Part shown: one piece after another, positions 4,127 through 30,009 of the stretch | Numbering within the stretch: the first letter of the stretch is position 1 | Layout of the letters: every line of letters starts with the position of its first letter | From: Spirochaetota bacterium | GTDB taxonomy: Bacteria; Spirochaetota; Spirochaetia; Treponematales; Treponemataceae | Assembly (NCBI GenBank): GCA_016285185.1 | Contig: JAEEQG010000007.1 | Coordinates: 1 to 64,000, forward strand | Direction: 5' to 3' | DNA: 64,000 nucleotides | Program-made: the position numbers and the translations under genes | Notes under the pieces: model-generated | The model's database searches: none | Seen by the model: the letters and a program-made list of their open reading frames with translations, nothing else | What the model was told of the DNA's origin: nothing

Positions 4127-4401
4127 TCACGGACGGTGCGGTTCAATTTTACGCGAATAAACACGTGATTCATCGCCCCAAACTGTTTTCATCTGTCCAA
4201 AATAAGAAAAGCCGTACTTTTCGTAAAGCCCGACTTCATCTGTTGAAACAAAAACTTTCTGTGTTTCAGGGTAAAGTTCCGGCGCAACCACGGTACAGCA
4301 ATGATCAATCAGTTTGCCTGCGAGATGTTTTCCGCGCCTTTTTCGAGCTGCGCTAAAATGCCAGCCTTATTTTCATATTCAAAATAATTCACAATCCGCA
4401 T
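4127..4401 (-). pseudogene. Frameshifted GNAT acetyltransferase remnant
   Basis: ATG at 4401 reads MRIVNYFEYENKAGILAQLEKGAENISQAN*, while another frame gives SAARKRRGKHLAGKLIDHCCTVVAPELYPETQKVFVSTDEVGLYEKYGFSYFGQMKTVWGDESRVYSRKIEPHRP*, a GNAT motif A plus C-terminus. Confidence 0.6.
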
Positions 4402-4433
4402 ACAGCCATTCTATCCGATGAAAAAGCAAATAG

Positions 4434-4892
4434 TTAATCTTTCAGTGTTTTTGCAAACGAAACATGACCCACTAATTCAGTAAAGCCGTTCTTTTTATAG
4501 AATTCATAAGCCGGAACATCGCGGTCTGTCTGCAAGAAAATGGCCTTAAGCCCGATACTTTTGATATAGCGTTCGATTTCCTGCATGAACTTTGTGCCAA
4601 GTCCTTGGTGCTGACGCGTGCGGCTGATGCAGAATTCGTCTATCACATATTCAGTGCCTCTGAACCAATGCGTGATGTAGCCCATCGACAGCCCGACTAT
4701 TTCTTCGCCTTCAAAAAGCCCAAGCGTAAGTGAATGAGACTGGCCGGTTAAGTCCAGAATATAATTGTGCAGCTGCTCGCCGTCGCTCCAATCATCGTTC
4801 CACGGTTCATTTGTGAATACATCAGCGAAAAAGGCCTTTACCATTTCTATACTGCTTACGTCAAGCCGCCGCAAGACAAGTTGTTTTTTCAA
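4434..4892 (-). CDS. GNAT family N-acetyltransferase
   Basis: IDEFCISRTRQHQGLGTKFMQEIERYIKSIGLKAIFLQTDRDVPAYEFYKKNGF. Confidence 0.9.
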   Translation of the reverse strand: MKKQLVLRRLDVSSIEMVKAFFADVFTNEPWNDDWSDGEQLHNYILDLTGQSHSLTLGLFEGEEIVGLSMGYITHWFRGTEYVIDEFCISRTRQHQGLGTKFMQEIERYIKSIGLKAIFLQTDRDVPAYEFYKKNGFTELVGHVSFAKTLKD

Positions 4893-25811: not shown

Positions 25812-25961
25812 TTAAAACTCCGTAATCCTATGCTAACATTTCTGTTATGAATTTGCAAATTTGGTAAGGAATTTTTTATTGTGAATTCTCCAGAATCTCA
25901 TTTTTGACATATATCTCAAAAGCCGTATTTTTTTTTGAGTCCAAAATAGAAAAAATGCTTG

Positions 25962-26018
25962 ACTTTATATATAGTGTGATGTAGGCTTGTAGAGATGAGT
26001 ATACCACTATATGTGGTT
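25962..26018 (+). promoter_or_regulatory. Candidate NrdR-box pair upstream of nrdR
   Basis: ACTTTATATATAGTGT (25962-25977) and ACCACTATATGTGGTT (26003-26018), 41 bp apart; similar to the ACAC-AT-rich-GTGT NrdR box; second box weaker. Confidence 0.55.
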
Positions 26019-26035
26019 AACCTCTGGGGTGGGTT

Positions 26036-26497
26036 ATGCGTTGCCCGTATTGTGGCAGTTTTGATGATAAAGTAATAGAATCTCGTACTATGGCCAACGG
26101 TGAAAGTATCCGCAGAAGAAGAGAATGTATCAGCTGCGGTTATCGTTTTACCAGTTACGAACATATAGAAGAAAAGCAGTTCATGGTAGTAAAGCGTGAC
26201 GGAAGACGACAACCGTTTGACCGTACAAAGCTTGAAAAAGGCATTGAACGTGCCTTGGAAAAAAGAGCTGTTTCCAATACAGAAATCGACAATATAGTAA
26301 ACGACATTCAAGACAAAGCCGTAATGAAAGGCAAAATCTCAAATGAAATAACAACCCGGGAACTTGGGGATTTAGTTTTGGAAAAACTATTTGAAACAGA
26401 TAAAGTAGCTTATATACGATTTGCTTCTGTGTATCGTCACTTTGAAAACATTGATGAATTTATACAAGAGGTAAAAAATGTGGGAGGATTAGGGTGA
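26036..26497 (+). CDS. nrdR: Transcriptional repressor NrdR
   Basis: MRCPYCGSFDDKVIESR..RRRECISCGYRFTSYE zinc ribbon plus ATP-cone. Confidence 0.96.
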   Translation: MRCPYCGSFDDKVIESRTMANGESIRRRRECISCGYRFTSYEHIEEKQFMVVKRDGRRQPFDRTKLEKGIERALEKRAVSNTEIDNIVNDIQDKAVMKGKISNEITTRELGDLVLEKLFETDKVAYIRFASVYRHFENIDEFIQEVKNVGGLG

Positions 26498-28614
26498 GCG
26501 ACCAAAAAGAATTTCCGGAATGGAAGAACTTTCTTGACAACAAGGAAGAAAAAAGGGCGGGGCTTGTTATTAAGAGCGTTGTCAAGCGTTCCGGAGAAAT
26601 TAAGCCGTATGATTCGGATAAAATCACGGCTGCAATCGGAAAAGCCATTGAGGCTGTAGAAAAAAAACCGAATATGGAAAAAGCAAGGCAGTTGACAAAG
26701 GAAGTTGAAAAAAAACTTAAGGAAATGATGTCGATGCGCCATGAGCATTCTATTCCTGCTATTGAAGAAATTCAGGACATTGTTGAAAATGTTCTTATAA
26801 GTAATAAAGAAGTTGCGGTTGCCAAAGCCTATATTCTGTACAGAGCAAGACACGACGCAATCCGTGATGCGAAAAGTCTTATGCTCGATATAAATGACAC
26901 AATGGACGGTTATTTAAATCAGTCCGACTGGCGTGTAAATGAAAACGCAAATGTCAATTTTTCGCTCGGTGGTCTTATTCTTCACAATTCAGGTACAATT
27001 ACAGCAAATTACTGGCTGCGTAATATCTATTCGCAGGAAGTTGCGGAAGCCCACAAAACAGCAGCTTTTCATATACATGATTTGTCAATGTTCTCCGGCT
27101 ACTGTGCGGGTTGGTCTATCCGACAGCTGATTGCGGAAGGTTTGGGCGGTGTTCCTGACAAAATAACGTCAACACCTGCAACGCATCTTTCAACACTGGT
27201 AAATCAGATTGTAAACTTTCTCGGTATTATGCAGAATGAGTGGGCGGGAGCACAGGCTTTCAGTTCTTTTGATACTTATCTTGCTCCTTTTATCAAAAAA
27301 GACAATCTTTCAGAGAAAGAAGTCCGCCAGTGCATCCAGAGCTTTATTTTCGGTGTAAACACACCGAGCCGTTGGGGTTCTCAGGCGCCGTTCACAAATA
27401 TCACGCTAGACTGGGTATGTCCTGATGACTTAAAAGACAAGCCTGCCATTGTCGGTGGTAAGGAAATGCCATTTAAATACAGCGATTGTCAGAAAGAAAT
27501 GGATATGATCAACAAGGTCTTTATTGAACTGATGATTGAAGGCGATGCAGCGGGACGCGGTTTTGCCTATCCAATTCCAACATATAATATTACAAAGAAC
27601 TTTGACTGGGACAGCGAAAATGCAAAGCTTTTGTTTGAGATGACAGCGCAGTATGGTACTCCGAACTTCCAAAACTTTGTAAATTCAGACTTGAATCCGA
27701 GTGATGTACGTTCAATGTGTTGCCGTCTTCAACTAGACAAACGCGAATTGCGCAGACGCGGTGGCGGTTTGTTCGGTGCGGACGAGTTTACCGGTTCTTT
27801 GGGCGTTGTTACAATAAACCTGCCTCAAATCGGTTATCTTGCAAAGGATGAAAAACAATTCTTTGCAAGACTTGATTACCTTATGGATCTGGCAAAAGAA
27901 AGCCTCTGCACAAAGCGTAAGGTTATTCAGCGCCTTCTTGATGGCGGACTTTTTCCGTATACAAGCCGTTATCTTAAAAAGCTTGACAACCACTTTAACA
28001 CAATTGGATTGTGCGGTATGAACGAATGCTGCATGAACTTTTTGGGAACAGACATTACGACTGCAAAAGGCAAAGCCTTTGCGGAAAAAGTTCTCGTTCA
28101 TATGCGAACACGTCTTGCAGACTATCAGGAAACTACCGGTGAGTTGTTCAACCTTGAAGCGACTCCTGCGGAAAGTACTTCGTACAGACTTGCAAAACAC
28201 GACAAAAAGACATATCCGGATATTATCACATCAGGTGAAGAAGAACCGTTCTATACAAATTCTTCCCAGCTGCCGGTAGATTATACCGCCGATGTTTTTG
28301 AAGCTCTTGATCATCAGGAATCATTGCAGACCAAGTATACCGGAGGAACAATGTTCCACGTATTCATGGGTGAAGCTGTACGTGACTGGAAAACATGCCG
28401 TGATTTGGTTCGCTCAATTGCATCAAGTTATCGTATTCCTTTCTTTACGATTTCGCCGACTTATTCAATCTGCCGTATTCACGGTTACTTGAACGGTGAA
28501 CAGTTTGAATGTCCTAAATGTAAGGAAGAAGCAGCATACGAACTGCAAAGAAAGCTTACAAAGCTTGAAGCCGAAAGGGCAGATCTGTTGGCGGCCGCAG
28601 GACAGACAAATTAA
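26494..28614 (+). CDS. nrdD: Anaerobic ribonucleoside-triphosphate reductase catalytic subunit lacking the C-terminal glycyl-radical segment
   Basis: ATP-cone VVKRSGEIKPYDSDKI; NrdD core; ends SICRIHGYLNGEQFECPKCKEEAAYELQRKLTKLEAERADLLAAAGQTN with no RxxGY motif. Confidence 0.93.
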   Translation: MSDQKEFPEWKNFLDNKEEKRAGLVIKSVVKRSGEIKPYDSDKITAAIGKAIEAVEKKPNMEKARQLTKEVEKKLKEMMSMRHEHSIPAIEEIQDIVENVLISNKEVAVAKAYILYRARHDAIRDAKSLMLDINDTMDGYLNQSDWRVNENANVNFSLGGLILHNSGTITANYWLRNIYSQEVAEAHKTAAFHIHDLSMFSGYCAGWSIRQLIAEGLGGVPDKITSTPATHLSTLVNQIVNFLGIMQNEWAGAQAFSSFDTYLAPFIKKDNLSEKEVRQCIQSFIFGVNTPSRWGSQAPFTNITLDWVCPDDLKDKPAIVGGKEMPFKYSDCQKEMDMINKVFIELMIEGDAAGRGFAYPIPTYNITKNFDWDSENAKLLFEMTAQYGTPNFQNFVNSDLNPSDVRSMCCRLQLDKRELRRRGGGLFGADEFTGSLGVVTINLPQIGYLAKDEKQFFARLDYLMDLAKESLCTKRKVIQRLLDGGLFPYTSRYLKKLDNHFNTIGLCGMNECCMNFLGTDITTAKGKAFAEKVLVHMRTRLADYQETTGELFNLEATPAESTSYRLAKHDKKTYPDIITSGEEEPFYTNSSQLPVDYTADVFEALDHQESLQTKYTGGTMFHVFMGEAVRDWKTCRDLVRSIASSYRIPFFTISPTYSICRIHGYLNGEQFECPKCKEEAAYELQRKLTKLEAERADLLAAAGQTN

Positions 28615-28632
28615 AATACGAAAAAAAGATTA

Positions 28633-28690
28633 ACACTAAATATAGTGTAAAAAGCTTGCAAAAAATCAAAAAGCACACTATATTTAGTAA
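28633..28690 (+). promoter_or_regulatory. Candidate NrdR-box pair between nrdD and the glycyl-radical ORF
   Basis: ACACTAAATATAGTGT (28633-28648) and ACACTATATTTAGTAA (28675-28690), 42 bp start-to-start. Confidence 0.75.
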
Positions 28691-28756
28691 AGATGTAGTA
28701 AAAAGTTACCGATATATAATGTAACTGAATTATTACAAGTTTGGGAGGAAAAAATT

Positions 28757-29296
28757 ATGGAAACAACAGGAAGAACTTTGGAAGCTATAGATGCTGAAAT
28801 TGCACGCACAAAAGAAGCTCTTGCCAATGTAAAAGGCAGCGAAACAGAAGTATATGCAAGAATTGTAGGTTATTACCGTTCTGTAAGAAACTGGAACAAA
28901 GGTAAGCGTGACGAATATAATCACAGAAAAATGTTTGTATATGACAATAAAAATGCTGCAGAGACCGTTATGGATAAAAAAGCAGCTGCACCTGTTGCCC
29001 ATACTGCAGAAGCAAATGAAAATACAAAGAGTGCTTTTACTCCTGCCCGCTATGAATTGTTTGCAAGGGCAACATGTCCAAATTGTCCGCCTGTAAAAGA
29101 ATATATGGCAAATGTAATAATTCCCGGAACAATGATTGACGTTGATTCTGAAGAAGGATTTGCCAAGGCTTCTGAACTCGGAGTTTTTGCCGCTCCTACA
29201 GTTATTGTTTATGATGCAAATGACTGTGAATGCGCAAGAGCACACTCAGTTTCCGAACTGGCTGCAATTTTTGAGCCGGTTGCAGCAGTATGCTAG
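28757..29296 (+). CDS. Stand-alone NrdD glycyl-radical domain fused to a CPNC thioredoxin/glutaredoxin-like domain
   Basis: ETEVYARIVGYYRSVRNWNKGKRDEYNHRKMF matches the NrdD C-terminal glycyl-radical region (Gly38, codon 28868-28870); C-terminus YELFARATCPNCPPVKEYM..VFAAPTVIVYD. Confidence 0.85.
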   Translation: METTGRTLEAIDAEIARTKEALANVKGSETEVYARIVGYYRSVRNWNKGKRDEYNHRKMFVYDNKNAAETVMDKKAAAPVAHTAEANENTKSAFTPARYELFARATCPNCPPVKEYMANVIIPGTMIDVDSEEGFAKASELGVFAAPTVIVYDANDCECARAHSVSELAAIFEPVAAVC

Positions 29297-30009
29297 AAGG
29301 CGAAAACAGACAAAAGAAAATCGGAGCTCTGATAAAAACATCTCTGGTTGATTATCCGCAGAAAGTTGCAGCAGCCGTGTTCCTACACGGCTGTAATCTT
29401 AGGTGTCCGTATTGTTATAACGTTGAGCTTGTTACCGGAAAAACAGATGATTATGACTGCGTAACATATGAAGAAGTTATAGCTCACCTTGAAAAGCGTA
29501 AAAATGTTCTCTCCGGTTTTGTTATTTCAGGCGGAGAACCATGTATGAGTTCCTGTTTGGAATCACTAATACGGGATGCGCGAAGTATTGGTTATCTTAT
29601 AAAACTGGATACTAACGGAACTTTCCCTGAAAAACTTGAATCTCTTTTTTCAAATACAGCTCTTATTCCTGATTTTGTCGCTATGGATTTTAAAACAACA
29701 CCTGAAAAATACACCTTATGCGGAAAAGAAGTATCTGAAAAAATAAAAAAATCAATTTCCATTATTTCGCAATTATCATCTGAAAAGCGTGAATTCCGTA
29801 CGGTTCTTGTTCCTAATCTGGTAAATGAAGAAGATATTGCTGATATGGCACAATATTTACCTAAAGATGCAGCATGGCGTTTTGCCCGTTTTAGAAACGA
29901 CAATTGCCTTGATAAAAACTATGAATCTCTTGTGCCATATACACAGGAACAAATTGATTCGCTTGTGCGCATTGCCGCAAAATATATACCGGATTCTGTA
30001 TTGCGCTGA
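29290..30009 (+). CDS. nrdG: Anaerobic ribonucleotide reductase activating protein (radical SAM)
   Basis: LVDYPQKVAAAVFLHGCNLRCPYCYN CxxxCxxC motif; VISGGEPC; adjacent to nrdD locus. Confidence 0.9.
   Translation: MLEGENRQKKIGALIKTSLVDYPQKVAAAVFLHGCNLRCPYCYNVELVTGKTDDYDCVTYEEVIAHLEKRKNVLSGFVISGGEPCMSSCLESLIRDARSIGYLIKLDTNGTFPEKLESLFSNTALIPDFVAMDFKTTPEKYTLCGKEVSEKIKKSISIISQLSSEKREFRTVLVPNLVNEEDIADMAQYLPKDAAWRFARFRNDNCLDKNYESLVPYTQEQIDSLVRIAAKYIPDSVLR

Follow-up and report, generated by a model that had tools for sequence, protein, structure and literature searches.

The 142-bp gap (28615-28756) between nrdD and the small open reading frame that follows it most probably carries an NrdR operator enclosing a sigma-70-type promoter, from which a two-gene unit, gly-nrdG, would be transcribed; judging from the sequence, we put the probability of this reading at about 0.88. 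The window, i.e., the whole 64,000-nucleotide stretch of DNA analyzed here, contains nrdR, nrdD, the gap, a 179-aa open reading frame (hereafter gly) and nrdG2, all on the plus strand (Table 1). The GTG start of nrdD overlaps the nrdR stop, and the gap extends from the nrdD stop to the ATG of gly. An intact nrdR lies two genes upstream of gly, and thus the genome encodes the repressor. An earlier note on this DNA had proposed that the radical subunit and nrdG can be transcribed apart from nrdD. In silico, this proposal is well supported, because the box pair is conserved, the promoter is embedded in it, and gly-nrdG units occur unlinked from nrdD elsewhere, mostly with NrdR pairs.

Table 1. 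Genes, NrdR boxes and candidate regulatory elements of the split nrdD locus (positions in the window).
Feature	Position	Strand	Description
NrdR box A ACTTTATATATAGTGT	25962..25977	+	overlaps -35 (TTGACT 25959-25964) and spacer of a weak candidate promoter
NrdR box B CCACTATATGTGGTTA	26004..26019	+	pairs with the 25962 box, spacing 42
nrdR repressor	26036..26497	+	Zn ribbon and ATP-cone; TIGR00244 176 bits (cut-off 124.65)
nrdD body	26494..28614	+	ATP-cone, class III RNR barrel, C-terminal heptad-like tail, no glycyl radical loop
NrdR box 1 ACACTAAATATAGTGT	28633..28648	+	0 mismatches; just upstream of -35
Candidate -35 element TTGCAA	28656..28661	+	4/6 match; TTGACA in most relatives
NrdR box 2 ACACTATATTTAGTAA	28675..28690	+	2 mismatches; contains -10
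Candidate -10 element TATATT	28679..28684	+	inside box 2; 17 bp after -35
5' UTR stem-loop candidate of the gly-nrdG transcript	28694..28737	+	near-identical in close relative L024
gly subunit	28757..29296	+	N-terminal helix, glycyl radical loop, linker, thioredoxin-like domain with CPNC
nrdG2 radical-SAM activase	29290..30009	+	TIGR02495 161.6 bits (cut-off 131.15); overlaps gly ORF end

The nrdD product, which matches NF006126 (PRK08270) with 1084 bits, covers columns 1-531 of the 562 in the Pfam NRDD profile, while the glycyl radical loop of the gly product, RIVGYYR (RIVGYYRSVRNWNKGK), corresponds to columns 531-562. The box pair is therefore located at the split in NrdD, as had been claimed earlier. 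The hallmarks of a class III ribonucleotide reductase (RNR), namely the NRDD barrel, the glycyl radical motif and the NrdG activase, are found here only across two chains; instead of sharing a polypeptide with the barrel, the loop is encoded by a separate open reading frame, both here and in 98 distinct loci. In the genome assembly, the only NRDD matches are the loop-less body and the gly subunit, a search for a class I or class II RNR large subunit returned none, and class III is the sole RNR family detected. Downstream of the loop, a low-confidence linker leads into a thioredoxin/glutaredoxin-like domain, an assignment based on weak family matches, a PDB profile search, an AlphaFold model with a mean pLDDT above 90 across gly residues 101-170, and Foldseek matches to thioredoxins.

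Both boxes in the gap are 16-bp palindromes close to the NrdR consensus (ACACWAWATWTWGTGT), with a pair score of 32.2. The earlier note had placed two boxes 42 bp apart between nrdD and gly, the second being close to the reverse complement of the first; the coordinates in Table 1 confirm this start-to-start distance, and 14 of the 16 positions of box 2 are identical to the reverse complement of box 1. The outer half-site of box 2 is degenerate here, and that of box 1 is degenerate in many relatives. The distance of four helical turns, also pointed out previously, leaves a spacer of 26 bp, which is one of the two spacings (approximately 15-17 or 25-26 bp) that work for NrdR: binding has been reported to be best with spacers of 15-17 bp, with a second optimum at approximately 24-27 bp, and repression was observed in vivo at 26 +/- 1 bp (PMC12051234). 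The pair is, moreover, positioned as expected of an operator at an RNR-gene promoter, with candidate -35 and -10 elements embedded in it and gly and nrdG downstream.

Single boxes alone carry little weight in this genome. A loose scan of the window for single boxes (at most 3 mismatches) gave 8 matches against 6.2 expected, which is not significant, and genome-wide only box 1 matches perfectly, accompanied by six sites with 1 mismatch. Five of these are copies of a repeated element carrying ACACTGAATATAGTGT (G000 C13, C63, C150 (position 72), C86:37447 and C112:23940), and the sixth (C45:10424) has a sequence context similar to that element, a partner 32 bp away and no RNR gene; as additional NrdR targets, these near-perfect sites were rejected. 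Such results are what one would expect if the boxes in the gap were themselves AT-rich palindromes arisen by chance, belonged to a repeat, or were bound by some other regulator. However, the flanks of the gap boxes are unlike the repeated element, and pair, spacing and position are all conserved. Since the single-box scan does not rise above chance, it is on pairing, spacing, position and conservation in relatives that the significance of the boxes rests.

Conservation was assessed on 69 loci from a scan of bacterial genomes, nearly all of them spirochaete (L092 belongs to a different lineage), together with seven same-genus genomes and 60 fetched regions, which after removal of near-duplicates amounted to 98 split loci. 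With a pair defined by a start-to-start distance of 41-43 or 31-33 bp, an NrdR pair was found in 48 of the 58 distinct split loci whose gap measures 80 bp or more, in none of the 40 with a shorter gap, and in neither of the control sets (0/1160 equal-length coding stretches and 0/1160 shuffled gaps). When the spacing was left unconstrained, the best value peaked at 42-43 bp (33 of 50 loci). The comparison of spacing among relatives for which the earlier note had called thus reveals that the canonical pair is kept; these comparative data refute a chance origin of the pair, and leave an origin in chance, repeats or another regulator barely credible as a whole. In a tree of 99 NrdD proteins, obtained by a quick search and with some unsure long branches, the internal operator is a clustered trait of a Treponemataceae clade, and the short-gap, operator-free loci fall outside that cluster. 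Since an internal operator is absent from about half of the split loci, a split NrdD can exist without separate transcription.

The promoter elements recur in register with the boxes. Among the 42 operators scored, i.e., pairs spaced 41-43 bp, a -35 element matching TTGACA in at least 5 of 6 positions lies 16-18 bp upstream of a -10 element inside box 2 in 35, against a background of 2.8%, and a -10 element of at least 5/6 within box 2 is present in 34. In the window, we infer a transcription start near 28691, 66 bases ahead of the gly ATG, which would fall at the low end of the range given in the earlier note (28690-28750). The segment 28694-28737, a candidate stem-loop of the resulting transcript, folds weakly better than its shuffles (z -1.6).

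The strongest evidence for what appears to be an NrdR-controlled gly-nrdG transcription unit is provided by two genera of Treponemataceae (g2 and g3), in which a long distance separates gly and nrdG from nrdD on chromosomes that are complete or nearly so (1.37 Mb versus 1.88 Mb in one example), and which form one side of a well-supported branch in the NrdD tree. Every g2 gly-nrdG unit has its own NrdR pair, spaced 41-42 bp, and in most of them a near-perfect box 1 is located in the spacer of a TTGACA-17-TATAAT-like promoter, with the second box 41-42 bp further on. The g3 pairs are more variable, one locus having a strong score (29.8), one a weaker score (17.1) and one a weak score (11.3). In several g2 and g3 genomes, nrdR-nrdD or nrdD carries a pair of its own too. 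Most g2 genomes encode a gly protein of only about 95 aa, without the thioredoxin-like domain (L234-L238), paired with nrdG. A different arrangement was observed in L267 (G365), where two glycyl-thioredoxin open reading frames (1-546 and 4368-4796) lie approximately 4 kb apart and nrdD is on a different contig.

No intrinsic terminator and no U tract were found in the gap, and read-through from nrdD into gly is possible. NrdR bound in the gap could then act mainly as a roadblock or fine-tuner on transcription coming from the nrdR promoter, with a minor internal promoter setting the nrdD : gly ratio. The order of the operon genes, which is conserved in relatives, would agree with such a role, as would the many relatives that combine a short gap with an NrdR pair upstream only. 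On the other hand, most relatives have a consensus TTGACA in the embedded promoter, whose register with box 2 is kept, and the internal promoter should be able to serve alone, because gly-nrdG units occur unlinked. As the principal function of the boxes, we therefore regard this alternative as unlikely, yet a roadblock or ratio-setting role is possibly compatible with an operator over a gly-nrdG promoter, the two not being exclusive.

The inverted boxes could also function mainly in RNA, by pairing into a hairpin when transcription from nrdR-nrdD reads through, and so govern how the mRNA is degraded or processed between nrdD and gly. A long stem of -17.8 kcal/mol is indeed predicted (z -4.9, with 0 of 200 shuffles as good), and the inner half-sites are complementary and partly co-vary (position 14 of box 1 with position 3 of box 2, correlation 0.44). 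However, complementarity between the boxes is already expected, because each NrdR box is itself palindromic in keeping with NrdR specificity. Moreover, the pair is kept in the unlinked loci even though box 1, in the -35/-10 spacer, lies there outside the transcript, the gap has no U tract, and similar inner half-sites occur ahead of nrdR, a place at which they have no partner gene upstream that would require them. The clustering of the spacing at three or four helical turns and the promoter elements embedded in register point to DNA binding, and a hairpin function, less consistent with the comparative data, appears highly improbable.

The internal operator is, as the earlier note implied, separate from another NrdR pair, located before nrdR (boxes A and B in Table 1). 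This second pair is weaker, with a score of 19.3 versus 32.2, and because the internal pair scores above it, the gly-nrdG unit may be more tightly held than the nrdR promoter. In the pre-nrdR operators of split loci, the inner half-sites are kept (TAGTGT-N26-ACACTA) and the outer halves have decayed. An upstream pair with a score of at least 17 is present in 10 of 44 loci with an internal operator versus 23 of 41 without (Fisher p 0.002); as these loci are phylogenetically clustered, we do not rely on this apparent trade-off. For half-site variants in the two operators of one genome, r was 0.29 (p 0.07).

We infer NrdR binding, repression and the association of the NrdD and gly halves, and propose the following mechanism. 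At high dATP levels, an NrdR tetramer carrying dATP and ATP would bridge the two boxes across four helical turns and, sitting on box 1, just upstream of the -35 element, and on box 2, over the -10 element, would exclude RNA polymerase. A drop in dATP would derepress gly-nrdG and raise the radical subunit and its activase relative to the NrdD body, which would be transcribed from the nrdR promoter, itself equipped with a weaker NrdR pair. Because one NrdR repressor serves both promoters, their transcription is separable and not independently sensed. An NrdR switch dedicated to the loop and its activase would allow radical-bearing capacity to be controlled apart from the catalytic body.

We rejected the idea that a frameshift or an assembly error had produced the split, since 98 distinct loci share it and complete chromosomes exist on which the two halves are unlinked. 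In other spirochaete families, single-chain NrdD fused to a thioredoxin-like domain is present, and where the junction of the fused protein is readable (L251, L253 and L273), the zinc ribbon continues directly into the loop. In the split proteins, NrdD has an additional heptad-rich tail and gly begins with a matching helix, and these two probably dock. Several genomes of the window's family (G093, G160, G164, G237, G242, G275, G359 and G381) have instead a complete, unsplit NrdD, which in G160 and G381 is either far removed from the split type or escapes detection with a split NrdD query.

The operator appears to be a variant of known NrdR regulation. As in the NrdR regulon operators of E. coli nrdDG and nrdHIEF, Streptomyces nrdRJ, and Streptococcus nrdHEF and nrdDG, a pair of 16-bp palindromic boxes is spaced by an integer number of helical turns near an RNR promoter in a genome with nrdR, and the 26-bp spacer is shared with the streptococci. 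In contrast to these operators, the one described here is internal to a gene that elsewhere is undivided, and it would control a radical-loop subunit and its activase separately from the catalytic body. In a published NrdR survey, the scan covered the 500 nt preceding whole RNR operons, with genes grouped at distances of up to 300 nt (PMC12051234), and because only these regions were scanned, the internal operator would be missed; more generally, such operators would escape surveys restricted to the upstream regions of whole RNR operons, just as a small gly open reading frame would escape annotation that takes it for a fragment. The open literature searched, whose coverage is incomplete, yielded no account of a spirochaete NrdD that is split or of an nrdD-internal NrdR operator, and novelty is provisional.

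Other RNRs offer partial parallels for the split protein. Class III enzymes with a glutaredoxin or thioredoxin reductant and NrdG2 (PRK08270-type NrdD) likewise have an NrdG2 activase and a thioredoxin-like partner, but here the polypeptide is interrupted after the zinc ribbon and before the glycyl loop, and each new end bears heptad-like helices, which the fused single-chain NrdD-Trx relatives lack. In the split class II RNR NrdJab of Pseudomonas (PMC4520616), the catalytic chain is also made as two proteins, although the class and the break point differ. Phage nrdD genes can be interrupted by introns, inteins or homing endonucleases, or be broken (PMC3653736); at the present locus, by contrast, there is no intervening mobile element, and the split is maintained in many spirochaete families.

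By analogy, the nearest functional idea is GrcA/YfiD of pyruvate formate-lyase (PFL), likewise a small separate protein with the glycyl-radical loop of a larger enzyme (PMC8683613). The gly subunit resembles it in being a small separate glycyl-loop protein, but while GrcA supplements an intact PFL, replacing the damaged loop of an otherwise complete enzyme, this genome holds only a loop-less body and gly. Because the NrdD body has no loop of its own, the gly subunit must be obligatory; unlike GrcA, it is in this genome also fused to a thioredoxin-like domain. Class III RNR has been reported to be cleaved by oxygen at its glycyl radical (PMC3019208), and we tentatively raise the rather doubtful possibility that gly is a swappable radical cartridge for NrdD, a logic also used by phages supplying their own glycyl subunits. 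If so, destruction of the radical chain by oxygen would lower dATP and release NrdR from the internal operator, newly made gly subunit and activase would re-arm existing NrdD bodies without their resynthesis, and phages would provide free-standing NrdD-type glycyl subunits to host reductases. With an operator at the split, this spare-part idea becomes testable for RNR.

Many viral contigs, up to 87 kb long, encode a free-standing NrdD-type glycyl domain of approximately 47-163 aa and no NrdD body. Examples among the IMG/VR contigs L124-L193 are L126:4998-5186, L137:4989-5180 and L190:4626-5114, and the 38,465-base record of ANMV-1 virus holds a 145-aa open frame (L274:2234-2668) that matches only NRDD columns 519-562. 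The few viral glycyl open reading frames compared with PHROGs matched NrdD large-subunit families or none, and no dedicated family. These products are possibly radical subunits for a host class III RNR and, together with additional glycyl open reading frames in a metagenome-assembled genome (G398), they make the cartridge idea worth testing, without being proof of it. The G398 genome has a split NrdD (L263) with a gly open reading frame of 67 aa that lacks the N-terminal helix, and two further glycyl open reading frames (L264:4000-4251 and L265:5-106), one sharing its contig with mobile-element-like genes, among them helicase- and ParA-like ones, and the other at the edge of a contig.
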